DNA from: Cohaesibacter haloalkalitolerans
GTDB lineage: Bacteria; Pseudomonadota; Alphaproteobacteria; Rhizobiales; Cohaesibacteraceae
Direction: 5' to 3'
DNA: 64,000 bases
Assembly (NCBI RefSeq): GCF_003574655.1
Contig: NZ_QNUM01000001.1
Location: forward strand, 806,001-870,000
Shown here: positions 14,190 to 45,201 of the stretch, piece by piece
Position numbering within the stretch: position 1 is the stretch's first letter
Layout: every line of letters starts with the position of its first letter
The notes under the pieces: generated by a model
The model's input: only the letters and a program-made list of their open reading frames with translations
The model's database searches: none
What the model was told of the DNA's origin: nothing
Made by a program: the position numbers and the translations under genes

Positions 14190-17100
14190 TCAACTGACCG
14201 CCGATTTCTTCGGCCAGGTGAAGCAGAAGGTGGTGCCGGGCTGCCTTGCCGGGTCAGAGATGATGGTGAAGGTCCCGCCGAGGGATTCGATTGCCTTCTT
14301 GACCAGCGCCAGCCCCATGCCGTTGCCGGGAATCTTGTCCTTGCGTTCCAGCTTTCTGAACGGCAACAGGATCTTGCTGTGATGTCGTGGGTCAATTCCA
14401 GGGCCGTCGTCGATCACCGCAAAGCGCCATGTCTTTCCGAGATCCTCCTGGGTGATCCGGACCGTGCCCTGATCCTTGTCGTGGTATTTGATCGCGTTTT
14501 CGACCAGATTACGGAACACCAGCATCAGGGGCGCCCGGAAGGTATGGATGGTGTCGACCAGCAGATCAACCTCCATCTGGATATCCCGGTTCTTGTCGAT
14601 GATGGCGAACATGTTTCGGAGGCTGGTTGCCAGATCGAGCTCTTCGGCCTCCTGCAGATTGGATCCGGCCTTGGAATAATCGGACAAGTCGGATATCAGG
14701 CTGCCAAGATGCGATATCTGGAATTTCAGCCGATCGATATGCTCCTGAATCTCGTCCTTGGCGCTGACCTCCAGATCTTCCTCGATCCATGTCGCCGTGT
14801 GCTGGATGGCCCGCAAGGGGCCGGCCAGATCATGGCTGATGATATGGGTGAACTGGTTGAGATTGTCGTTGATGATCTTCAGTTCCTGATTGTGGGCTTC
14901 CAGCTCCTTTTCCGCCCTGATCCTGCCGGACACATCGGCCAGAACGGTGCGCGTCTGCTCGATACCCTTGTTGTCGGCAACGATGACGGTCGACATTTCG
15001 ACATCGATGACGTCGCCGTTCTTCTTGCGCATCTGGAACAGGATATTGTCAGCCTGCTTGGTCCGGGTCGCCTCGGGAATGACGACCTCATAGGCGTAGC
15101 GGGTTGAGGCTTCGGTCATGAATTCTTCCCAGTGATGGCCGATGACTTCCTCGCGCTCGTAGCCAAGCGAGGTCAGCCACTTCTGATTGGCCTCCACGAT
15201 GGTGCCGTCCTTGTCGAGGGAATGCATGATGACCGGGGTCTCCATGTAAAGCTTGCGGAAGCGTTCTTCCTCCTCCATGAACAGATTATTGAGCAGCTCG
15301 AGCTTTTCCTGCTGATCCCTGCGAAACAGTTCATAGCCGATCCAGTCGGAAATCCTGTCAACGATGGGCTGATAGGTCTCCAGATGGAACCTGCTGACCG
15401 GATATTTGGAGGCAAACATGATCGCGCCGATGGTGGCATTGTTGCTGATGATCGGGGAGCCGATGATTGATACAAAGCCATAGGCGCGCAGGATCTGGGC
15501 GTTGTCCTTGACGCAGTCCATCATGTTGCCGCTGCAGGACATCACCCCACCCTCGCCAAGCAGATTGCCACATTCATCGCAAGGGGTGCCGAAGGCCTGG
15601 CGCAGGGCAATGTCGGTATCGTCGAGCCCGATCATCTGCTTGACGATGAACCGCTGGTTCGCAAAGCTCAGCTTCAGGGCGGCCGGCAGATGGGAAACCT
15701 CGCAGACGCGTTTCAGAATGAGCCTTATCTTGTCATCGAGATCAAGGCTGCTGTCGGCGGCGATATGGTTGAAGTCAACCATCATCTTTTCGCGTTCGAC
15801 GCTTTCGGTCACGTTGTGAATGACGGTCTGGATCTCGATGGTGTGGTCTGCTTCATCCCTGACCAGACTGAACTGGCACAACAGCCACCTGTTGGTGCTG
15901 CCGGGCAGCTCGCAGGACCACTCGGTCTTGCCTTCCTTCTGCAGATCCCGAATGGCATGCAAAAGGCCTTCTCTCTGTGAGCCGATGAACAGGTCATGAA
16001 AGAAGGTCCGGGTGATCGTTCCCGGCTCGATGTTGAAGAAGGACATGAAGGCGGTGTTGGCGAAGGTGATGGCATAATCGGGCTTGAAACGGCAGACCAG
16101 ATCGCTTTGCAGGTCGACGACCGCCTTGTAGAATTCCCGCTCCTTGTTTGCTTGCTCCTTTGCCCGCTTGAGGGCGTCGATCTCGAAAATGGTGATCACC
16201 GCGCCACTGACCTGCTCCTGCTCTGTCCTGTAAGGGAGCACGGTGATGAGATGGGCTACGCCGTCGCACTCCACTTCGAGACTGCGCTGTCTGCCGCTCT
16301 TGATCGTGTCCACAATGTCATCGTAAAAGCCTTCGCCATTGAAGCGGCAGGTGACATGACTTATCGGGCGGCCAATGTCGTGCGGAACCAGATTGAAGGC
16401 TTTGGTCGAGGCCGGAGTAAAGCGTCTGATTTTGGCGGTCTTGTCGAGGAAGATCGTGCCGATTTCGGTGCTGAGCAGCAGGTTTTCCATGTCGTCGGTC
16501 AATTCGGTCAGTTCAACGATCTTGCGCTGATGCTCGGCGCTGACGGTATAGAGCTCCTCGTTGACCGAATGGAGTTCCTCGTTGGTGCTCTGAAGCTCTT
16601 CGTTGGAGGCGGTCAGTTCCTCGTTTGTGGCCTGAAGCTCCTCGTTGCTGGTTTCCAGCTCCTCAATGGTCGTCTGAAGGCTTTCCTCGGTGGATTTCAA
16701 CTCGTTTTCCAGCTCACGGATCCGCTGGGCATAGACCGTGTCGGCTTCGGGCGCTGGCGAGATGTAGGACAGGATTTCCTGATCCGGAAATTTCTCTTCT
16801 CGCTCTTCGAGGATGATGAGCAGGAAGGTGCTGCGGATTTCGATATCCACGATCTTGGAAATACGGACGGTCAGGCGGATCTTGTCGCCACTGAGGTCTT
16901 CGATCCGCACGGCCCGTTCGAATTCCACCTCATGGCCGATGGACAGGGCGCGTTCGATCCCGGCATTGATCACCAGCCTCAGGTCCTTGACGACCATGTC
17001 GGAAAGGCGATTGCTGAACAGGCCCTTGCGCACGTGAAGGAATTTCTCGGCATGTCCGAATACATGAACCAGTTCCCCGTTTTCGCTGATCAGGAAGCCC

Positions 17101-18848
17101 GTCGGAGCATAGCGTTCCAGAAGCCGGTCGTAGGCGCCATAAAGCGCCTGCCGGGCGAGGCGTTCCTTCCGCGTTGCCTCAAGGCTTTGGGATCGGGTGT
17201 CCCTGAGGGACAGCCCTTCTGCGGCATCATCCCGGACGCGGGAAGAGGACGGCAGCAGAAAGGCCTGCTCATGCAGGCGTGTGTTGCGTTTTTTCTGGAA
17301 GATCCGCCAGCGCTTGTCCAGAGTGATGAATTCCATGTCGAGATTGCCCACCGTCTCGCTTGACCCGAGAAACAGATAGCCGTTCTTTCGCAAGGAGAAA
17401 TGGAACAACGAGAGGACCTTGCGCTGCGCCTGATCGTTGAAATAGATCAGCAGATTGCGACAGGAGATGATGTCGATCTTGGTGAAGGGCGGGTCCTTGA
17501 GCAGGTTCTGCGTTGAAAAGACGACGTGTCTTCTAAGACTCTTTCTGACCTTGTAGCGACCGTCGGAGACCTCGAAATAGGTGGCAAGGATCTTTTCCGG
17601 AATCTGGCTGACGCTTTCGGCGCTGTAGCTGCCAGCGGCTGCGAACTCAAGTGAGCGGAAGTGGATGTCCGTTGCGAATATCTTCAGATTGGGAGCGACG
17701 CCCATTTCCTTTGCCAGCTCACAAATGAGGATTGCGATCGAATAGGCTTCCTCGCCTGTTGCGCACCCCGGCACCCAGAGCCTGAGTTGCCGGTCCGGGG
17801 CCATCAGCCCGACGAGGTCGGGCAGCACCTTGGTCTTGAGAATTTCGAAGGCACCCTTGTCGCGGAAGAATTCGGTCACTCCGATCAGCAGATCGCAATA
17901 GAGCGTGTCCATCTCTTCCTTGTCGGAACCCAGAGTGTCGCAATAGTCATCAAGGCTTGAGAGGCGTTTGAGCAGGGCTCGTCGCTGGATCCGGCGGTGG
18001 ATGGTGGCCTGTTTGTATTGGCTGAAATCGGTGCCATATGCCTTTTGCAGGATGGTCAGGATACGGGCTTCGGGGTCGCTTTCCTCAACGATATCCCTCT
18101 CCTGCAGCGGCATGCCGGTGCCGGCAAGGATTGCCTCTAGAATGTCGGGCATATCGGCGACCTTTGCAGAGAAGGCAGAGGCGATCGTTTCAATGACCTT
18201 GCGCGGCATGGAATCGAACTTGGCGGTGGCCGGGTCCTGTGCAATGACGACGCCGCCATGGTGGATGATCTGCTGGCTGCCGCGGGTGCCGTCCGAACCG
18301 GTGCCGGACAGAACGATCCCGATGGCCTGTTCTCCCTCCTCATGGGCCAGAGAAGAGAAGAAGGCATCAATCGGCAGGCTCAGCATGTCGTTGTCCGGAT
18401 AGGCGGTCGCCTTCAGTCGTCCATCCTTTATCGAAAGCTCCGTGCGGGGCGGGTTGAGATAGATGACATTGGGCTCGATGGTCATCTCGTCTTCAGCATG
18501 GACGATGCGCATTTTCGTGTGGCGCGCGATCAGCTGGTCCATCATCGACTGGAAGTTGGGAGAAAGATGTTGGATGATGACAAAGGCCAGACCGGGGGGG
18601 ATCGGCATCGCTTCGAACAATTGTTCGATGGGCTCCAGACTGCCGGCAGATGCGCCAATGGCAACAATGCGGACAGAGGTCTCTGCGGTCTTTTGTGTTG
18701 CAGCTACCGTTGATCTGTCAGGCTTTTGCCCCTTTGGTCGCGACGCCTTGGCGGAAGGCTTGCCTGTGCGCTTTGCCACCCGCCGGGACCTGGCCGGTTT
18801 TGCTGCTCCCGATGGAGAGGAGACTGAGCGTTCAGCATCCTTACTCAT
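14190..18848 (-). CDS. CheB-CheR-PAS-GAF-histidine kinase fusion
   Basis: Encodes 1552 residues. A basic tail (1-55) precedes a CheB methylesterase (about 58-245; Ser in AIGASAGSLEP, His in QHLSPN, Asp in GTGSDGTRG) and a CheR methyltransferase (about 258-530; SAM loop VPGCATGEEAYS). After a PAS-like domain comes a heptad coiled coil of EELQSTNEELHSVNEEL type (about 705-785), two PAS domains, a cysteine-rich GAF domain, another PAS, an H-box with HIISHDLAGPLRAI and an ATPase domain with NAIKYHDKDQG, DDGPGI and GNGMGLALVKKAI. No receiver domain is present. ATG 18848 follows GGGGGAGGATTGACC. Such fusions are sensors, not classical chemotaxis adaptation enzymes; substrate and signal are unknown. 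Confidence 0.9.
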   Translation of the reverse strand: MSKDAERSVSSPSGAAKPARSRRVAKRTGKPSAKASRPKGQKPDRSTVAATQKTAETSVRIVAIGASAGSLEPIEQLFEAMPIPPGLAFVIIQHLSPNFQSMMDQLIARHTKMRIVHAEDEMTIEPNVIYLNPPRTELSIKDGRLKATAYPDNDMLSLPIDAFFSSLAHEEGEQAIGIVLSGTGSDGTRGSQQIIHHGGVVIAQDPATAKFDSMPRKVIETIASAFSAKVADMPDILEAILAGTGMPLQERDIVEESDPEARILTILQKAYGTDFSQYKQATIHRRIQRRALLKRLSSLDDYCDTLGSDKEEMDTLYCDLLIGVTEFFRDKGAFEILKTKVLPDLVGLMAPDRQLRLWVPGCATGEEAYSIAILICELAKEMGVAPNLKIFATDIHFRSLEFAAAGSYSAESVSQIPEKILATYFEVSDGRYKVRKSLRRHVVFSTQNLLKDPPFTKIDIISCRNLLIYFNDQAQRKVLSLFHFSLRKNGYLFLGSSETVGNLDMEFITLDKRWRIFQKKRNTRLHEQAFLLPSSSRVRDDAAEGLSLRDTRSQSLEATRKERLARQALYGAYDRLLERYAPTGFLISENGELVHVFGHAEKFLHVRKGLFSNRLSDMVVKDLRLVINAGIERALSIGHEVEFERAVRIEDLSGDKIRLTVRISKIVDIEIRSTFLLIILEEREEKFPDQEILSYISPAPEADTVYAQRIRELENELKSTEESLQTTIEELETSNEELQATNEELTASNEELQSTNEELHSVNEELYTVSAEHQRKIVELTELTDDMENLLLSTEIGTIFLDKTAKIRRFTPASTKAFNLVPHDIGRPISHVTCRFNGEGFYDDIVDTIKSGRQRSLEVECDGVAHLITVLPYRTEQEQVSGAVITIFEIDALKRAKEQANKEREFYKAVVDLQSDLVCRFKPDYAITFANTAFMSFFNIEPGTITRTFFHDLFIGSQREGLLHAIRDLQKEGKTEWSCELPGSTNRWLLCQFSLVRDEADHTIEIQTVIHNVTESVEREKMMVDFNHIAADSSLDLDDKIRLILKRVCEVSHLPAALKLSFANQRFIVKQMIGLDDTDIALRQAFGTPCDECGNLLGEGGVMSCSGNMMDCVKDNAQILRAYGFVSIIGSPIISNNATIGAIMFASKYPVSRFHLETYQPIVDRISDWIGYELFRRDQQEKLELLNNLFMEEEERFRKLYMETPVIMHSLDKDGTIVEANQKWLTSLGYEREEVIGHHWEEFMTEASTRYAYEVVIPEATRTKQADNILFQMRKKNGDVIDVEMSTVIVADNKGIEQTRTVLADVSGRIRAEKELEAHNQELKIINDNLNQFTHIISHDLAGPLRAIQHTATWIEEDLEVSAKDEIQEHIDRLKFQISHLGSLISDLSDYSKAGSNLQEAEELDLATSLRNMFAIIDKNRDIQMEVDLLVDTIHTFRAPLMLVFRNLVENAIKYHDKDQGTVRITQEDLGKTWRFAVIDDGPGIDPRHHSKILLPFRKLERKDKIPGNGMGLALVKKAIESLGGTFTIISDPARQPGTTFCFTWPKKSAVS

Positions 18849-19149
18849 GGTCAATCCTCCCCCAAGGAATGAAAGCGGTTGGAACCGTTCTGTTGTGCCC
18901 GGACAATAAATGAAGCTGCGTCGAAATTGTTCTGGACGAGTTCTAATTGTTTGGTTTTATATATTGTTATCCGAAACTTAGGGTAGAGATTAACATTTTA
19001 TTCATTCTGGGGAAACGGTCTTTGCGTTGGGCGAAGCTGCCATGTTGACAAGATGCCGTAGCGCGGCGTCAGGTGTTCTTTTGACTGTGGTTCGTTCTTG
19101 ACGAAGGCGTGTTTTGCCCTCCATCCTGCTTTGGGGATGAGGGGGAGAC
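18849..19149. promoter_or_regulatory. Divergent intergenic region
   Basis: This 301-bp stretch lies between the CheB-CheR kinase (minus) and the H-box protein at 19150 (plus). It has an AT-rich core near 18950-19005 and ends with GGGGGAGAC before ATG 19150. I see no gene and no clear operator. Confidence 0.4.
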
Positions 19150-21201: not shown

Positions 21202-23061
21202 CTAGTAGAGTACTGAGCTCATCGACAGGCTGTCCCAGATCTCCTTGACCGTGTGCTTGAGTTCGCGGCGGCGGTCCTCATAATGGGTGTGCAGCAGATG
21301 ATGGGCCTTCTCCGAGTTGGGCGCTTCGAGGAAATCCCGATAGAGGGCCTGAACCTGCTCGTTCTTGTGAGACTGGCGCACGTTGGTCTTGCGGTCCACA
21401 TTGTAGATTGTCTCGCGCCGTGCCATGGCAAGAGGCAGATAAGCCTTCTTGGAGCGTAGCGAGCCGCCGCCATCGACGCAGCCACCGGGGCAGGCCATGA
21501 CCTCGATGAAGTCGTAGTCGGCTTCTCCCGACCGGATCATCTCGACCAGCTTGCGCGTGTCGCCAAGGCCATGGACCATGGCCACTTTCACTTCGCCGAT
21601 CGGGTCGCCCAGATCGACTGTTGCTTCACGGATGCCTTCGAAACCGCGCAACTGGGTCAGCTCGATCCTGTCAAGCTCCTTGCCGTTGACCACTGCATAG
21701 ATGGTGCGCACGGCGGCCTCCATGACGCCGCCCGTGGTGCCGAAAATGGCAGCTGCGCCGGAATATTCGCTCATGTAGGGATTGTCAAAGCTCGATGGCT
21801 TGATGGTCTTGAGATCGATCCCCTCCCGCCGGAGCAGGCGGGCGAACTCCCGCGTGGTGAGCACCACATCCGTATCCCGCTCGCCGAGCGTTGCCAGCTG
21901 GGGCCGGGCGGCCTCGTCCTTCTTGGCGATGCACGGCATGATCGAGATGACGCGAATGCGGTCTGCCGCGATATCCTGTTTCTCCGGCAGATAGGTCTTG
22001 GCAATCGTCGAAAGCACCTGCTGGGGTGACTTGGTCGAGGACAACAGCGGCAGGATATCGGGATAGTGGGTTTCGGCAAAGTTGATCCAGGCCGGGCAGC
22101 AGGAGGTGAAGGTCGGTTTGCGGCCTTCCTTGAGGCGCCCGAGCAGCTCGGTGCCCTCCTCCATGATCACCACATCGGCAGCGAAATTGGTGTCGAGCAC
22201 GATGTCGACGCCGATCTTGCGGCAGGCGGCGATCACATGGCCCTCGACATTGGTGCCGGCGGGCATGCCGAATTCCTCGCCAAAGGCAACGCGCACGGCG
22301 GGAGCAAACTGCACCACGGTGATGATGTCCGGATCGCAGATATAATCAAGCGCCCGGTCGGTTTCATCCCGTTCTCCCAGCGCTCCTGTCGGGCAGACCA
22401 GAACACACTGTCCGCAGGAAACACAGATGTTGCTCAGTGGGTCATGGCCATCGCGCAGGGCGACAACGCGGTTGTTGCCGGTGCCTTCGATGACGAGGGC
22501 ATCGATGCCCTGATGATCGCGGCAGATGGCAACGCAACGCTGGCAGCGGATGCAGCGGCGCATGTCGCGGACCATGGCGGTCGAGGCCTCATCCACCGGT
22601 CGGCTTTCTGCCAGAGCCCGGTCAAAGAAACGGTTCTCCTTGAGGCCGACATATTGGGCGACATCCTGCAGTTCGCAGTCGCCGTGGCGAATGCACGTGG
22701 CGCAGTCCTGCAGATGGTCGGCCATCAGCAGCTCGACCTGCAGCCGCTGCATGTTGCGGGCCTTCTTGCTGCGGGTCTCGACCGTCATGCCCTCCCGCAC
22801 CGGTGTGTTGCAGGAGGTGACGATCTGGGCTCCGTCGTGGCCCGAATGGGTGATTTCGACCAGACAGACACGGCAGGTGCCCGGGGTGTGGTCGATGTCG
22901 TCCAGCTCGCACAGGGTCGGGATGTAGATGTCGTAACGACGGGCACAGGACAGGATGGTCTCGTTCGGGAAGGCCATGCAGGTCTTGTTGTTGATCTGGA
23001 GCTTGATGGTTGCCTCGGCAGGGTCGCGTCCGGCGTGGCTGATCGGCTCAATGGTGCACAT
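21202..23061 (-). CDS. [FeFe]-hydrogenase catalytic subunit
   Basis: Encodes 619 residues. Order: plant-type [2Fe-2S] (C51, C63, C66, C84), His-Cys [4Fe-4S] (H116, C120, C123, C129), two [4Fe-4S] clusters (C170/173/176/180 and C213/216/219/223), then the H-cluster domain. All three H-cluster signatures are intact: TFTSCCPAW (C321, C322), SIMPCIAKKDE (C377) and EVMACPGGCVDGGG (C524, C528). The proton-path residues equivalent to clostridial CpI E279, E282, C299 and S319 appear as E302, E305, C321 and S341, aligned from memory. A small-subunit-like tail follows. It is cytoplasmic, with no signal. The adjacent GltD-like partner, 3 bp upstream, matches what is called the glutamate-synthase-linked group (A2). 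No hydE/F/G maturases are in the window. Confidence 0.95.
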   Translation of the reverse strand: MCTIEPISHAGRDPAEATIKLQINNKTCMAFPNETILSCARRYDIYIPTLCELDDIDHTPGTCRVCLVEITHSGHDGAQIVTSCNTPVREGMTVETRSKKARNMQRLQVELLMADHLQDCATCIRHGDCELQDVAQYVGLKENRFFDRALAESRPVDEASTAMVRDMRRCIRCQRCVAICRDHQGIDALVIEGTGNNRVVALRDGHDPLSNICVSCGQCVLVCPTGALGERDETDRALDYICDPDIITVVQFAPAVRVAFGEEFGMPAGTNVEGHVIAACRKIGVDIVLDTNFAADVVIMEEGTELLGRLKEGRKPTFTSCCPAWINFAETHYPDILPLLSSTKSPQQVLSTIAKTYLPEKQDIAADRIRVISIMPCIAKKDEAARPQLATLGERDTDVVLTTREFARLLRREGIDLKTIKPSSFDNPYMSEYSGAAAIFGTTGGVMEAAVRTIYAVVNGKELDRIELTQLRGFEGIREATVDLGDPIGEVKVAMVHGLGDTRKLVEMIRSGEADYDFIEVMACPGGCVDGGGSLRSKKAYLPLAMARRETIYNVDRKTNVRQSHKNEQVQALYRDFLEAPNSEKAHHLLHTHYEDRRRELKHTVKEIWDSLSMSSVLY

Positions 23062-23064
23062 GGC

Positions 23065-25062
23065 TCAGGCCGCTCCTTCGGGGATGGAATGCTTGGTGAT
23101 CACGGAATAGAGGCGATAGCAGCGCATGCAGCGTTGGGCCTCCTTATAGGCATCTGCCAGACTGATGGTCTGTTCCACCTCTCCGAACATCGTCTTGCGC
23201 AATTCCGGGTCAAGCGCCGGATTGTGCACCCGGTAGCCGTTGCGCACCGGGGTTTCGACCGCATCGCTGGCGAGAAAGGCGTTTTCGTTGATCAGCTCGC
23301 GCATGCGGGAGCGCTTGAAGAAGCGCGGTGTGCCGAACTGGATCCAGTCGTCGATGCTGCGCGCCGCCTTGAGCCCTGCCGACATGGCATAGATGAGGGT
23401 CGAGGGGCCGGTGACGCAGTCACCACCGGCAAAGACGCCGGGGCGGGAGGTTGTGAGGGACTTGTCCGCTTCCACGCATTTCCACTTGTTGAAGTCAATG
23501 CCTTCCTCGGCGATGGTTTCCTGATTTTCCACCTGCTGGCCGATGGCAGCTATGACTGTCGAGCAGGGCATGATGTGTTCAGTGCCGTGGATCGGGCGGA
23601 CGCTGCGGCGGCCGCTTTCGTCCGGCTCGGTTTCTTCCATCTCGACAAGCTCGACCCCGGTGATCCTGCCATTCTCGGAGATGATCCGGATCGGGGTGCA
23701 GAGGGTGTGGAAGTCGATGTCTTCCTTCTCGGCCTCTTCCACCTCTTCGGTGTCGGCGGGCATGGCCTCGCGGGTGCGGCGATAGATGAGATGGGCCTTG
23801 GTCGCCCCGAGGCGCACGGCAGAGCGGACACAGTCCATGGCGACGTTGCCGCCGCCGACAACCACGACGTCGCCCTTCAGCTGGAAGGTGTCGATGCCGT
23901 CGACATGGTCGTGGACCTTGAGCAGGAAGTCGATGCCGGTGAAATAACCCTCGCGGACCTTCTCCTCATCACGGACGCCGAGCATGGTGCCTTCCTGGCA
24001 GCCGAGCCCGAGGAAGATGGCCTTGTAGCCGCGCTGGAACAGATCGTCGATGGTAAAGTCGGTGCCGAGCTGCTGGCCAAACAGGAAGCGGCCGCCGAGG
24101 TCGACGATGATGTCGGTTTCCATCGCCAGAGTATCCTTTGGCAGGCGATAGTTCGGGATGCCGATCTGGGCCATGCCGCCCGCCTTGTCCTGCTTCTCGA
24201 AGACATCGACGTGATAGCCGTGCAGCAACAGGTGATAAGCGCAGGAGATACCTGCCGGTCCGGCACCGATGACCGCGACCTTCATGCCATCGGCGAGGGG
24301 CTTCTGGATCATTTCGCGGGTGAACTTGAGGGCATGAGGCCCCTTCTGCTGGTCGGCAACAAAGCGCTTGAGGGTCTTGATGCCCACCGCTTCATCAACG
24401 AACTTGCGGCGGCAGGCCTGTTCGCAATAGCGCACGCAAACCCGACCACAGGTCGCCGCCATGGGATATTTCTGCAGCAGAACGCCGAGCGAATTCTCTG
24501 GCTTGCCGTCGCGGATATAGTCGATGTAGCGCGGCACATTGACCTTCGACGGACAGGCCTCGATGCAGGGGGCAGTCATGTAGGCCATGCCGTGCTGGGC
24601 GCGGATGGGCAAATGGTTGGCCACCTCCTTCTCGATCTGCTCACGGAAATTGCGAATGACTTCCAGCAGGGCGACACAGCAGGTCTGCCCCAGACCGCAA
24701 AGGGAAGTCTCCTTCATCTGCTCGCCCAGCATCTCGATGTCGTCAAAGTCGAGTGGCGTGTCGAGACCCCGGCGCATCTTGTCAAGCGCATCGCGGATCA
24801 ACACTGTGCCCATGCGGCAGGGGGTGCAGGCCCCACAGGACTGCTCAGCGGCCTTGCTCATGTAGTGAAACAGGCCGTCAACCAGACTGACGGTTTCATC
24901 GAAGACGAAGAACCCCCTGTCGGCAAAGAAGGCCCGCACGGCGTTGCCTTCATCGAATTCGTCGAAATTTCTGAGTGCGGACAGAGGGGTGTCTTTGCCA
25001 GGCAGATTGCGCCTCGCATCATGAACAACCCCGTCCCAAACGCCATACACCACGTGTGCCAC
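23065..25062 (-). CDS. NuoF-tail/GltD-like NAD(P)H oxidoreductase, hydrogenase partner
   Basis: Encodes 665 residues from a GTG start. Residues 55-135 match the C-terminal iron-sulfur domain of NuoF/HydB (SCGACTPCRMG with C76, C79, C82 and the fourth Cys C122); the FMN- and NADH-binding parts of NuoF are absent, and residues 1-55 are unassigned. Residues 155-640 form a GltD-type module: N-terminal cysteines C166, C170, C205, C209, C213 and C217, FAD loop VAVIGAGPAGISCAYH, second nucleotide loop VVVVGGGNVAMDCVRSA, and C-terminal GVFAGGDCVTGPSTLIYAMS. It should pass electrons between NAD(P)H and the hydrogenase; direction and cofactor specificity are open. It is cotranscribed with the hydrogenase gene. 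The start is preceded by GGGGGTCACT. Confidence 0.9.
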   Translation of the reverse strand: MAHVVYGVWDGVVHDARRNLPGKDTPLSALRNFDEFDEGNAVRAFFADRGFFVFDETVSLVDGLFHYMSKAAEQSCGACTPCRMGTVLIRDALDKMRRGLDTPLDFDDIEMLGEQMKETSLCGLGQTCCVALLEVIRNFREQIEKEVANHLPIRAQHGMAYMTAPCIEACPSKVNVPRYIDYIRDGKPENSLGVLLQKYPMAATCGRVCVRYCEQACRRKFVDEAVGIKTLKRFVADQQKGPHALKFTREMIQKPLADGMKVAVIGAGPAGISCAYHLLLHGYHVDVFEKQDKAGGMAQIGIPNYRLPKDTLAMETDIIVDLGGRFLFGQQLGTDFTIDDLFQRGYKAIFLGLGCQEGTMLGVRDEEKVREGYFTGIDFLLKVHDHVDGIDTFQLKGDVVVVGGGNVAMDCVRSAVRLGATKAHLIYRRTREAMPADTEEVEEAEKEDIDFHTLCTPIRIISENGRITGVELVEMEETEPDESGRRSVRPIHGTEHIMPCSTVIAAIGQQVENQETIAEEGIDFNKWKCVEADKSLTTSRPGVFAGGDCVTGPSTLIYAMSAGLKAARSIDDWIQFGTPRFFKRSRMRELINENAFLASDAVETPVRNGYRVHNPALDPELRKTMFGEVEQTISLADAYKEAQRCMRCYRLYSVITKHSIPEGAA

Positions 25063-25445: not shown

Positions 25446-25584
25446 GAGTTGGCTTGTGATTAATACTTTAGTATTGCTCGTCGTTTGATGTGTTGACTAT
25501 GGTCCTTTGGGCTCAGTTTTTATAATTTTCCTCGAAAGATATTCAGCTGCCGCGAAAATGATGGTGTTGTTAAGCGGAGTTGTC

Positions 25585-26622
25585 ATGCGTCAATCGGAAG
25601 GTCGTAAGATGTCCCATTCATCACAGTCATCTTTGGATCGTCGTGCCATGCTGCGGTGGGGTGCCGGGGCGGCGCTGGCCGGTGCATTCGGAGGGCTTGG
25701 CGGTATCGGGGCTAGTGCCAGCGACAGCGGGCTTGTCCTCTGGGGTATTCCAGCTTCGCCGTCTGCGGTCTTTGCCCGTGCGGCGCTGTCTTCAACCCTA
25801 GCAAAGGCTGCGCCGGGTGTCCGCTTCGACGTCTGGAAGAGCACCGACCAGATGCGGGCCGGGATCGCATCCGGTGACTTCAAGATGTTTGCCACGTCCA
25901 CCTATGCGGCTGCCAACTTCTTCAATCGCGGGGCGGGAACCGTGATGGTCAACGTGGTCACATGGGGTGTGCTCTATGTGATGGCGCGAGACGAGAGTAT
26001 CCATAGGATTGAGGATCTGGCAGGCAAACGGGTGTTGCTGTCGAACAAGAATGAAGCGCCCGATCTGCTGTTTCGTCTGGTACTCAAATGGTCTGGACTG
26101 GACCCGGACAAGGATGTGACGCTCGACTATGTCGGCTCGCCGGGGGAAGCCGTGCCGCTTTATCTGGCCGGGCGAGGGGATGTGGCGGTGTTGCATGAAC
26201 CCTCGTCCACCGCAGCCCTGTTTCGTGCAAAGAAGGCGGGCGTGCCGCTTTATCGGGCGATCGACATCACCGAGGTCTATGGTGCCCATACCGGCCGAGG
26301 CCCGCGCATTCCGCAGGTCGGGCTGGCGGTCAATCCTGCCTTTCTGGAAGAAAAGCCGGAGGTTGTCCGGGCTGTGCACGAAGCCTGCGTTGAGGCCGGG
26401 CAATGGACGATGGCCAACTGGGACGAAGCTGGCAAGCTGGCCGCCCAGTCACTACCGTTGCCCGCGCCGGTTATTGCCAAGTCCCTGCCTTTCGTGCATC
26501 TCGATGTGCTATCGGCCAAAGAGGCGCAGGCTGACATTGAGCTGTATTTCGAGCATCTGATGAGCCTTGATCCGGGGATTGTCGGCGGGCGGAAACCGAC
26601 TTCAGACTTTTACTGGGGGTAG
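25585..26622 (+). CDS. ABC transporter substrate-binding protein, NitT/TauT type
   Basis: Encodes 345 residues if started at ATG 25585 (AAGCGGAG upstream) or 337 from ATG 25609 (GGAAGG upstream). The N-terminus carries a Tat-like signal: SLDRRAMLRWGAGAALAGAF followed by GLGGIGASA. The body has the pattern of SsuA/TauA/NrtA-type binding proteins: KSTDQMRAGIASGDFKMFA, VLYVMARDESIHRIEDLAGK, NKNEAPDLLFRLVLKWSGLD and GDVAVLHEPSSTAAL. It would act in the periplasm and deliver a small anion or aromatic/sulfonate-type ligand to the permease encoded next; the ligand is unknown. It is the first gene of a three-gene operon with 1-2 bp or overlapping junctions. Confidence 0.85.
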   Translation: MRQSEGRKMSHSSQSSLDRRAMLRWGAGAALAGAFGGLGGIGASASDSGLVLWGIPASPSAVFARAALSSTLAKAAPGVRFDVWKSTDQMRAGIASGDFKMFATSTYAAANFFNRGAGTVMVNVVTWGVLYVMARDESIHRIEDLAGKRVLLSNKNEAPDLLFRLVLKWSGLDPDKDVTLDYVGSPGEAVPLYLAGRGDVAVLHEPSSTAALFRAKKAGVPLYRAIDITEVYGAHTGRGPRIPQVGLAVNPAFLEEKPEVVRAVHEACVEAGQWTMANWDEAGKLAAQSLPLPAPVIAKSLPFVHLDVLSAKEAQADIELYFEHLMSLDPGIVGGRKPTSDFYWG

Positions 26623-26623
26623 T

Positions 26624-27436
26624 GTGGGCAAGACCGATCAGCGCAGAACACAACGGGGAAAAAGGGGCAGGGGGATGCGTCGCGCCCTGCTGTTTGCGGC
26701 CGGGGTCGGGCTGATGCTGGTGCTCTGGCAGGCGGGCCATGTTGCCTATGGCTCTCTTGTTCTGCCCGGTGTTGGCGAAACTCTTGTCAAGCTTCAGCGG
26801 CTAATCGGGAGCGGTGAGGTTGGGGATGCGCTTCAGGCCACGGCCTTCAATGCGCTGACGGGCTGGTGCCTCAGCGTGCTGATTGGCGTTGTTGCCGGTG
26901 GGCTTGCGGGTCGGTTCGAGGAACTGCGCTTTCTGTTGCAGCCAGTGGCGATCATTCTTCTGGGCGTTCCGGCGATTGCATGGGTGGTGCTGGCGCTGTT
27001 GTGGTTCGGAGGCCGGTGGGCGGTGGTGTTCACTGTGGCGGTTGCCACGGCGCCGATGGTTTTTGCCGCCGCTGTTCAGGCTGTGCGAAGCCTTGACAGT
27101 GATCTGGCCAGAATGGCGCGGGCCTTCCGTGCTCCGCCCCGGGCGATGCTGTTCGATGTCTATGCCCCGCATATGCTGGGCTATCTCTATCCGGCCCTTG
27201 CGACCACGCTGGCGATGTCGTGGAAGGTGTCTATTATGGCTGAGCTGCTTTCCGGCTCCGGCGGCATTGGCGACGGGATCGCGGCTGCGCGGGCACGAGT
27301 CGATACGGCCGAGCTGCTGGCCTGGGTCGTGGTGGTGGTGGCTATCCTGATCATGCTGGACCAGCTGTTGTTGCGGCTGGTGCGTGAGCGGATGCATGTC
27401 TGGCGGCAAGAGGAGGAGGGCCATGGCGATGGATGA
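26624..27436 (+). CDS. ABC transporter permease, NitT/TauT type
   Basis: Encodes 270 residues from GTG 26624, which follows the substrate-binding gene's TAG by one base and has GGGGGTAG as ribosome site; ATG 26675 is an alternative. It has a basic N-terminus, then about six helices. The SsuC/TauC-type coupling loop is seen in ARMARAFRAPPRAMLFDVYA followed by PHMLGYLYPAL, and the typical LLGVPAIAWVVLALLWFG segment. It forms the membrane channel for the neighbouring ATPase and binding protein. It overlaps the ATPase gene by 14 bp. Confidence 0.88.
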   Translation: MGKTDQRRTQRGKRGRGMRRALLFAAGVGLMLVLWQAGHVAYGSLVLPGVGETLVKLQRLIGSGEVGDALQATAFNALTGWCLSVLIGVVAGGLAGRFEELRFLLQPVAIILLGVPAIAWVVLALLWFGGRWAVVFTVAVATAPMVFAAAVQAVRSLDSDLARMARAFRAPPRAMLFDVYAPHMLGYLYPALATTLAMSWKVSIMAELLSGSGGIGDGIAAARARVDTAELLAWVVVVVAILIMLDQLLLRLVRERMHVWRQEEEGHGDG

Positions 27437-28154
27437 CGCCCTGCTTGCGCTTTCCGGCGTTGGGTTTGCTTATGGCGAGCGAGTGGTGCTGTCGGGCATC
27501 GATCTCGCCTGTCGGCGCGGACAGGTGGTTGCCCTCATGGGGCCTTCCGGGGCTGGCAAGACAACGCTGCTGTCGCTGGTGCTTGGAGGCAATCAGCCCG
27601 CAGAGGGGAAGCTTGCCTGTCGGGCAGAGCGATTGTCCGAGATGTTTCAGGAACCGCGTCTGTTGCCATGGCGCAACGCTTTGGACAATGTTGCCTTCGC
27701 GCTCAAGGCACAACCCGTCTCGGGGCGCGAACGGGTGGCGAGGGCAGAGGCGATGCTGGATGCGGTGGGCCTGCCGAGGGCCAGTCACCGGCAGTTTCCC
27801 CATCAGCTCTCAGGCGGCATGCGGCAGCGGGTGTCACTGGCGCGGGCGCTGGTCATCGAGCCGGACCTGTTGCTGCTCGACGAACCGTTTGATGGTCTTG
27901 ATGTTGCGCTGGTCAGGCAGATGCAAACCCTGCTGCTTTCCCGTGTCGCTGATCGGGGCATGGGCATCGTGATGGTGACCCACGATGCCCGACACGCCGC
28001 CGCGATGGCTGACCGGATTTGGGTGCTGTCAGAAGCCCCGGCTCGCATCGTGGCCTGCTTCGATGGGGCGAAAGACCGCTCCGGCCCATCCTGTCTGGCG
28101 CTGGCCGATCGGATCGAGCAGGCATTGCTCTCCGCTTCTAGAGGAAGCCCTTGA
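27423..28154 (+). CDS. ABC transporter ATP-binding protein, NitT/TauT type
   Basis: Encodes 243 residues from ATG 27423, preceded by GAGGAGGAGGGCC. Walker A is LMGPSGAGKTTLL, the Q-loop MFQEPRLLPWRN, the signature LSGGMRQRVSLARAL, Walker B LLLLDEPFDGLD and the switch His VTHDARHAA. The MFQEPRLLPW sequence is characteristic of the SsuB/TauB/NrtD group. It energises import by the two preceding gene products. The 3' end overlaps the convergent TauE/SafE gene by 17 bp. Confidence 0.93.
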   Translation: MAMDDALLALSGVGFAYGERVVLSGIDLACRRGQVVALMGPSGAGKTTLLSLVLGGNQPAEGKLACRAERLSEMFQEPRLLPWRNALDNVAFALKAQPVSGRERVARAEAMLDAVGLPRASHRQFPHQLSGGMRQRVSLARALVIEPDLLLLDEPFDGLDVALVRQMQTLLLSRVADRGMGIVMVTHDARHAAAMADRIWVLSEAPARIVACFDGAKDRSGPSCLALADRIEQALLSASRGSP

Positions 28155-44247: not shown

Positions 44248-45201
44248 TTAATCCGCATCGGGTTCGAAATCATCCGAGAGCGGATGGTGATGCTGGACCA
44301 GCTCGATCAGCCGCTCATCGAGAATGTGGGTATAGATCTGGGTTGTCGAAATGTCGCTATGGCCGAGCAGCTTCTGCACGGCGCGCAGGTTCGCGCCATT
44401 CTGCAACAGATGGCTGGCAAAGGCGTGGCGCAGCACGTGGGGGGAAACGGAACCGGCATCAAGTCCGACACCTGCAGCCAGTGCCTTCATTTCGCGGGCA
44501 AAGGCCTGACGGGTGTAATGCCCGTCCTCACCCGAAGAGGGGAACAGCCACGGCTGGGCGTTGAGCCCTTGCGGTAGCCCTGTGGCTTTCAGCATGGCGC
44601 GATAGCTGCGCATGGCTTCCTTGGCCCTGTCGGAAAGCGGCACCAGCCGCTCCTTGTTGCCCTTGCCGACAACGGACAGGAATTGCCCGTCCATATGGGC
44701 CGCAGAGGCGGGCAGGGTGACCAGTTCGGAGACGCGCAGGCCGGTTGCATAGAGCAGCTCCAGCAACACATAGAGCCGCATGGCCCGCACCTGGCGTTTC
44801 GGCGTCGGGCCTTCCAGCGAGGCATTGAAACGGGCGGCCTCGATCAGGCGGTCCACCTCCTGCACGGTCAGGATCTTGGGGAGCGGTCGCGCGCGCTTGG
44901 GGGCCTTGAGCGCTGTCGAGGGGTCGTCGGTGCGGTAGCCGTCGCGATAGAGGAAGCGGAACAGCTGGCGGATCGACGAAATCTTGCGGGCCACGCTGGA
45001 GGCGGCAAGTCCGCGTTCGGACAACTCGCCGATATAGGTGCGCAGATCCTCGGTGGCGCATGTCTCGAATTTCTCCGGCATGGTCTCGTTGAGATCTTCC
45101 AGATCCCGCTGATAGGCATCAAGCGTGTTGCCCGAGGCGCCTTTTTCGGCGCTCAGTGAATCCAGAAACAGATGAATGGCCTGATGGTTTGCCAGTGTCA
45201 C
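44248..45201 (-). CDS. xerD: Tyrosine recombinase XerD
   Basis: Encodes 317 residues from a GTG start (MTLANHQAIHLFLDSLSAEK). The N-terminal SAM-like core-binding domain is followed by the catalytic domain with Arg in LLYATGLRVSELV, Lys in GKGNKERLVPLS, HxxR in SPHVLRHAFASHLL, His in LGHSDISTTQIYTH and the tyrosine in that last segment. With XerC it resolves chromosome dimers at dif. It shows chromosomal context (accA on one side, aroK/aroB on the other), not integrase context. Confidence 0.95.
   Translation of the reverse strand: MTLANHQAIHLFLDSLSAEKGASGNTLDAYQRDLEDLNETMPEKFETCATEDLRTYIGELSERGLAASSVARKISSIRQLFRFLYRDGYRTDDPSTALKAPKRARPLPKILTVQEVDRLIEAARFNASLEGPTPKRQVRAMRLYVLLELLYATGLRVSELVTLPASAAHMDGQFLSVVGKGNKERLVPLSDRAKEAMRSYRAMLKATGLPQGLNAQPWLFPSSGEDGHYTRQAFAREMKALAAGVGLDAGSVSPHVLRHAFASHLLQNGANLRAVQKLLGHSDISTTQIYTHILDERLIELVQHHHPLSDDFEPDAD

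Follow-up and report, generated by a model that had tools for sequence, protein, structure and literature searches.

A [FeFe]-hydrogenase and flavoprotein gene pair under strong purifying selection in genomes without HydE, HydF and HydG

The window analysed here is a stretch of 64,000 nucleotides from Cohaesibacter haloalkalitolerans (contig NZ_QNUM01000001.1, positions 806,001 to 870,000) that carries hydA, the gene of a [FeFe]-hydrogenase catalytic subunit, together with the gene of a flavoprotein partner (Table 1). The maturases HydE, HydF and HydG (HydEFG) are regarded as required for active [FeFe]-hydrogenases. We found that strong purifying selection maintains the HydA/flavoprotein pair in genomes in which all three are missing. 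Many free-living bacteria from at least two lineages keep such a maturase-less hydA, and selection on its active site is strong. This raises the question whether an H-cluster can be formed or acquired in the absence of HydEFG, or what the job of the H-domain is without its 2Fe unit. Because culture collections hold strains of several relatives, this can be tested directly.

An intact hydrogenase and flavoprotein pair

Both genes were confirmed as real, and the pair is intact at the cluster ligands and 2Fe-pocket residues that were checked. The flavoprotein gene is first in transcript order and ends 3 bp before hydA (23062-23064). HydA consists of a 2Fe-2S domain, a His-Cys3 4Fe-4S domain, two 4Fe-4S clusters, the H-domain and a small-subunit (SSU) tail, in that order, and its Pfam domains are Fer2_4, NADH-G_4Fe-4S_3, Fe_hyd_lg_C and Fe_hyd_SSU. 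Its score of 519.5 bits against TIGR02512 (cut-off 405.95) places it in group A, and its 720.6 bits against NF040763, the model for NADH-dependent group A6, fall below the cut-off of 765. The domain order, the H-cluster motifs and the proton path are shared with CpI and with the group A (M3-type) HydA1 of bifurcating hydrogenases (8a6t, 7q4v; 506.7 bits against 8a6t_A in phmmer). Unlike in those systems, the host here lacks HydEFG and the partner is a fusion of NuoF C-terminal and GltD parts, not HydB/HydC. The genome holds one hydA copy over the cut-off, and the closest named relative in the genome scan was Cohaesibacter marisflavi (94% HydA identity).

The flavoprotein comprises the C-terminal 4Fe-4S domain of NuoF (PF10589), Fer4_20, a GltD-type FAD/NAD(P) domain (Pyr_redox_2) and a C-terminal CxxC; the Pfam scan listed no NuoF FMN/NADH domain. 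With PF10589 as the only part of NuoF listed, the pair lacks the partner with a full FMN/NADH domain that characterizes group A3 (bifurcating HydABC). The best matches among solved structures were 9bov_A (a molybdopterin oxidoreductase), 9n5u_A (NfnA) and 8oh5_C (listed in the database as the formate dehydrogenase-O major subunit), with the GltD part as the aligned region. According to the available part of its description, HydDB assigns to group A2 those HydA proteins that have immediately downstream a protein with a GltD-type domain and no NuoF domain, and gives the role of this 'glutamate synthase-linked (putative)' group as undetermined (PMC5037454). The GltD-type flavoprotein in the operon resembles this arrangement; however, it is encoded upstream of hydA and carries a NuoF C-terminal 4Fe-4S domain, so the pair does not fall cleanly under the rule.

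Ligands and catalytic residues were placed by alignment to CpI and then counted in 49 sequences, 22 from maturase-less and 27 from maturase-bearing genomes (see below). HydA has all four H-cluster cysteines (C322, C377, C524 and C528) and the proton-path residues C321, E302, S341 and E305, which correspond to a path given in CpI numbering as C299-E279-S319-E282 (PMC6226526). The R286 position is occupied by R309, an Arg that varies among the relatives. By residue counts the ligands of the accessory clusters are conserved, and 15 cysteines of the flavoprotein are present in 22/22 maturase-less and 27/27 maturase-bearing relatives. An earlier note, made from the DNA alone, had described a [FeFe]-hydrogenase with intact H-cluster cysteines and aligned proton-path residues, next to a GltD-type flavoprotein at 3-bp spacing, and these descriptions were all borne out by the profile scores, alignments and counts.

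Purifying selection in genomes without maturases

Profile searches of the host genome (5.01 Mb, 24 contigs, 99.85% complete) gave no match over the cut-off for HydE, HydF or HydG. The earlier note had called the operon complete and had set the absence of all three genes as a result that would overturn a functional reading. That absence is what was found, so 'complete' does not stand and activity cannot be deduced from the cysteines alone. The HydF model gave ten matches below its cut-off in this genome (the best at 79 bits; cut-off 325.55), and it gives such matches in control genomes also. Divergent copies of HydE and HydG were considered and rejected, as the weak matches sit in CofG and CofH of F420 synthesis, beside CofD. 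The genes cofG, cofH and cofD lie in a row in this genome (G000:C20, about 188770-192350), with an open reading frame (ORF) upstream that resembles an NMT1-type binding protein by appearance.

The genome scan returned 80 relatives of hydA, and a match to the flavoprotein gene was found beside hydA in all 80, with five of the matches partial. From these, 50 were selected for maturase searches (isolates, long contigs) and 48 were searched, at E-value limits of 1e-20 for HydG and HydE and 1e-30 for HydF. HydG was over the cut-off in 26 of the 48 relatives' genomes; with the host genome included, HydF and HydE were each over the cut-off in 27 of 49. At these limits, all three maturases were missing from the same 22 genomes, which include Cohaesibacter, Rhodovulum, Rhodopseudomonas, Tropicimonas, Aliiruegeria, Rhodobium, Rhodoplanes and Blastochloris. 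The other 27 all have HydE and HydF, with HydG below its cut-off in a single 1.8-Mb bin (G044). The positive control, Thermotoga maritima, was detected over the cut-off.

Within the family, hydA is present in 13 of 20 genomes, all of them in the genus of the host (13/18). A search made for HydF alone did not find it in any of the other 12 genus genomes that carry hydA, among them six single-contig assemblies, giving 0/13 with the host; it was likewise not found in one hydA-negative genome searched alongside. Since HydF is missing from 13 of 13 hydA-bearing genus genomes and 22 of 49 genomes lack every one of the three maturases, the absence is not an accident of assembly. A survey of the class put 15 of 387 sampled Alphaproteobacteria, the host included, over the TIGR02512 cut-off, in agreement with the earlier statement that [FeFe]-hydrogenases are uncommon in this class. 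Among the other 14, HydF was over the cut-off in eight, matched below the cut-off in G078, and had no match at E<=1e-30 in five (G122, G123, G201, G217 and G423). The hydA genes of those five are of another type, with 36-40% identity to the window HydA, and within the short flanks available none of the 14 genomes matched the window flavoprotein beyond its NuoF-like part.

Selection was measured on the 13 HydA genes of the genus as the ratio of nonsynonymous to synonymous substitution rates (dN/dS), using the 64 of 78 pairs with dS between 0.05 and 2; pairwise values of dS beyond about 1 are close to saturation. The median dN/dS was 0.055 and the maximum 0.154; by part, the values were 0.044 for the H-domain, 0.071 for the N-terminal and 0.067 for the C-terminal part. 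No internal stop occurs in the 13 sequences, and the earlier description of hydA as not relict agrees with these values. We checked 19 positions of the pocket and the proton path, and 17 of them do not vary in any of the 27 maturase-bearing and 22 maturase-less sequences. Of the other two, the R286 position is variable with and without maturases, the Q325 position in the maturase-bearing group only. By an 80% criterion, one column separates the two groups (237, Ala versus Val). There is no sign of relaxed constraint at the site that the maturases should fill.

A HydA tree was built from 56 of the 81 sequences, with maturase labels assigned before the tree was made. The maturase-less sequences fall into two groups and one lone sequence, which requires at least three changes of state; one of the two groups also contains three sequences without a maturase label. 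A single clade of 21 maturase-less sequences against 25 others was rejected by the approximately unbiased (AU) test (p-AU 0.0116), from which one maturase-less (L061) and two maturase-bearing sequences (L073 and L092) had been left out as unsure or long-branched in the first tree. Because sequences of different families are intermingled inside a maturase-less group, transfer of hydA between maturase-less hosts is likely. Bins labelled Eisenbacteria (L041) and Acidobacteria (L049) have a hydA pair that falls among proteobacterial sequences, by binning error or transfer, and the HydA reads of two Accumulibacter bins (L067 and L068) contain one in-frame stop each.

Possible roles of the pair without HydEFG

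The best reading of the pair, toward which we lean slightly and to which we give a probability of roughly 0.4, is a hydrogenase linked to NADP(H) that would receive its [2Fe] subsite by a route other than HydEFG. Judged by its domains, the GltD-type subunit would have NAD(P)(H), probably NADP(H), as its partner in electron exchange. From this subunit the electrons would pass through the NuoF-like 4Fe-4S domain of the flavoprotein to the clusters at the N-terminus of HydA, in a manner similar to the contact between NuoF and NuoG. The active site of HydA would be filled and would handle H2/H+, and its [2Fe] subsite would be delivered independently of HydEFG. We infer a filled site because the residues known to hold the 2Fe unit or relay its protons are unchanged in two or more lineages without maturases. 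The missing maturases in the host and its relatives, the low dN/dS with its minimum in the H-domain, the rejection of a single maturase-less clade and the partner gene beside hydA in 80 of 80 loci also speak for this reading.

Several points weigh against a hydrogenase of this kind. We know of no established HydEFG-independent route, and no candidate gene for one was found among the named families tested. The invariance of 17 out of 17 pocket positions is no clear excess, because 84 of the 97 H-domain columns that are invariant in the maturase-bearing sequences are invariant in the maturase-less sequences as well. An FNR-like site (at least 9 of 10 positions) was found upstream of the flavoprotein gene in none of the 22 maturase-less loci, and in one of the 27 maturase-bearing loci. 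In addition, E. coli without maturases yields an algal HydA in the apo form only (PMC9400101), and earlier authors considered the hydrogenase gene of Rhodospirillum rubrum probably inactive or differently employed (PMC4967309; both sources in the parts available). The Hyp machinery of [NiFe]-hydrogenases was tried as a general supply of the subsite and rejected as unlikely: of 34 genome entries, 23 have HypD over the cut-off and 11 lack it. HypD is present in the host, and the single-contig genomes G444 and G447 are among those without it. Totals over genome entries count two genomes twice, as G438 and G435 appear identical to G001 and G006 (same match places).

Next to the pair, and diverging from it, lie genes for an ATP-binding cassette (ABC) importer (Table 1). 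A match to its binding protein was found in the examined hydA flank of 27 of the 80 relatives' loci, and its placement relative to the pair takes at least three forms, namely upstream and divergent, upstream in line, and downstream in line. With the window counted, the binding protein is linked to hydA in 16 of the 22 maturase-less loci; in five of the six unlinked cases, all of the Rhodoplanes group, the binding protein, permease and ATPase are encoded together elsewhere in the genome. A search covering the 22 maturase-less and 19 of the 27 maturase-bearing genomes gave a binding-protein match at E<=1e-40 in 22/22 and 8/19, respectively. At ortholog level (at least 450 bits) the counts were 20/22 and 7/19, with all seven of the latter in Pleomorphomonas; the remaining two maturase-less genomes scored 264 and 292 bits. 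Within the genus, the protein scored above 500 bits in 10 of 13 hydA-bearing and none of five hydA-negative genomes, and a weaker match (326-338 bits) was present in four of those five. Three hydA-bearing genus genomes (G437, G443 and G449) gave no binding-protein match at E<=1e-40 and no importer of this type in the 19-kb stretches around hydA. A twin-arginine motif is visible in the window protein and in 25 of 27 listed relatives, the reads of the other two being over-long. The predicted model of the binding protein (predicted local distance difference test score, pLDDT, 87.6) retrieved NMT1/SsuA-class binding proteins at about 20% identity, with 3hn0 ranked first and the pyrroloquinoline quinone (PQQ)-binding protein PqqT second; a predicted fold match at this superfamily level does not fix the ligand. 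At one Xanthobacteraceae locus (L042:11501-13744), the importer linked to hydA has a TonB-dependent receptor gene immediately ahead of its binding-protein gene.

Nearly as likely as the NADP(H)-linked hydrogenase is a redox role without the cofactor, in which HydA would carry its [4Fe-4S] and [2Fe-2S] clusters only. The pair would then be an NAD(P)H-linked module for electron transfer to, or reduction of, a different substrate, which the linked importer may bring in. The lack of maturases in the host and the maturase-less relatives, the conserved ligands of the accessory clusters and the linkage of the importer in several arrangements all point this way, and the view of the R. rubrum gene as inactive or in a different role (PMC4967309) agrees with it. 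In such an apo-enzyme the residues of the 2Fe pocket and the proton relay would be expected to drift, yet they show no variation, and constraint on the protein is strongest in the H-domain. Moreover, the same importer family also adjoins the pair in Pleomorphomonas, which has the maturases.

We regard it as improbable that the importer makes HydEFG dispensable by taking up a precursor of the [2Fe] type, or some other needed component of the active site, that other microbes release. The distribution of the binding protein over maturase-less and maturase-bearing genomes, and over hydA-bearing and hydA-negative genomes of the genus, speaks for such scavenging, and the twin-arginine motif, the rank of PqqT in the structure search and the TonB receptor beside one importer are consistent with it. 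In addition, whole cells of E. coli can mature an apo-hydrogenase with added synthetic cofactor (PMC9400101). However, the three genus genomes without the binding protein have hydA and lack HydF, the two low-scoring maturase-less genomes lie in the range of the hydA-negative genus genomes, and Pleomorphomonas holds importer and maturases together. The bit limits were set after the scores had been seen, 13 of the genomes had already contributed sequences to the query alignment, and independent contrasts number only about three. The fold match is at superfamily level, and release of such a precursor by microbes is hypothetical. Slightly more doubtful still is the wider proposal that the organometallic subsite of the H-cluster, or its precursor, is a shared nutrient imported by the linked twin-arginine-type ABC transporter, so that the [FeFe]-hydrogenase would be active without HydEFG, by analogy with bacteria that import rather than make vitamin B12.

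Two further explanations were rejected as very improbable. The loss of all maturases could have left hydA behind as a decaying relict, but the median dN/dS of 0.055, the uninterrupted reading frames of the 13 genus sequences, the intact partner gene and ligands and the mixing of families within a maturase-less tree group, which suggests transfer between such hosts, argue otherwise. Maturases that escaped detection because of gaps in the assemblies, the loss of a plasmid or strong divergence could be suspected given that most genomes are drafts, that the single-contig genomes were searched for HydF only and that the host has ten weak HydF-model matches, but HydF was not found in the six single-contig genomes of the genus, and the same searches gave all three maturases over the cut-off in 26 of the 27 other genomes and detected the Thermotoga control.

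Pleomorphomonas and Magnetospirillum have the same two-gene operon (HydA identity 67-71%) and, unlike the host, HydE, HydF and HydG are present in those of their genomes that were searched. A 2008 paper, known from its title in the reference list of PMC9449697, reportedly deals with the Fe-only hydrogenase of R. rubrum and its production of H2. The available part of PMC4967309 describes a [FeFe]-hydrogenase gene without maturases in R. rubrum, maturases in Pleomorphomonas and Phaeospirillum, and hydrogenase genes without maturases in protists such as Entamoeba. By that account, R. rubrum resembles our host as an alphaproteobacterium with a hydA-type gene and no maturases. Unlike this single case, the present group spans several families and at least two lineages and comes with selection and transporter evidence. 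Among the matches listed in a literature search, with most subscription journals outside its scope, no title or abstract start dealt with maturase-less hydrogenases of Cohaesibacter or with the importer link; as far as this search shows, the occurrence in several lineages, the evidence for selection and the association with a transporter are new.

Mapped features and other neighbouring genes

Table 1. Genes of the pair and of the linked importer, in window coordinates.
Feature	Position	Strand	Basis
hydA, [FeFe]-hydrogenase group A catalytic subunit, 619 aa, ATG start	21202..23061	-	ORF call, profile searches
Flavoprotein partner, 665 aa, GTG start	23065..25062	-	ORF call, Pfam/profile searches
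ABC importer substrate-binding protein, NMT1/SsuA superfamily, twin-arginine signal motif	25507..26622	+	ORF, fold, relatives' loci
ABC importer permease	26567..27436	+	Neighbourhood comparison
ABC importer ATPase	27384..28154	+	Neighbourhood comparison

The TTG start of the binding-protein gene is a mechanical choice, and the ATG at 25609 is likelier. No RNA families were found in the window. In the Rhodoplanes group (L050, L053, L054, L057 and L071), a conserved protein of about 740 amino acids is encoded upstream of the flavoprotein gene and in line with the pair; the one copy scanned had no Pfam family over the cut-off. Elsewhere in the window, a 1554-amino acid ORF (14190-18854) resembles a CheB/CheR-type fused sensor kinase by sequence appearance, and its counterpart (67% identity) also lies beside hydA in C. 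marisflavi. A tyrosine recombinase ORF of the Phage_integrase family is located at 44248-45201 on the minus strand.

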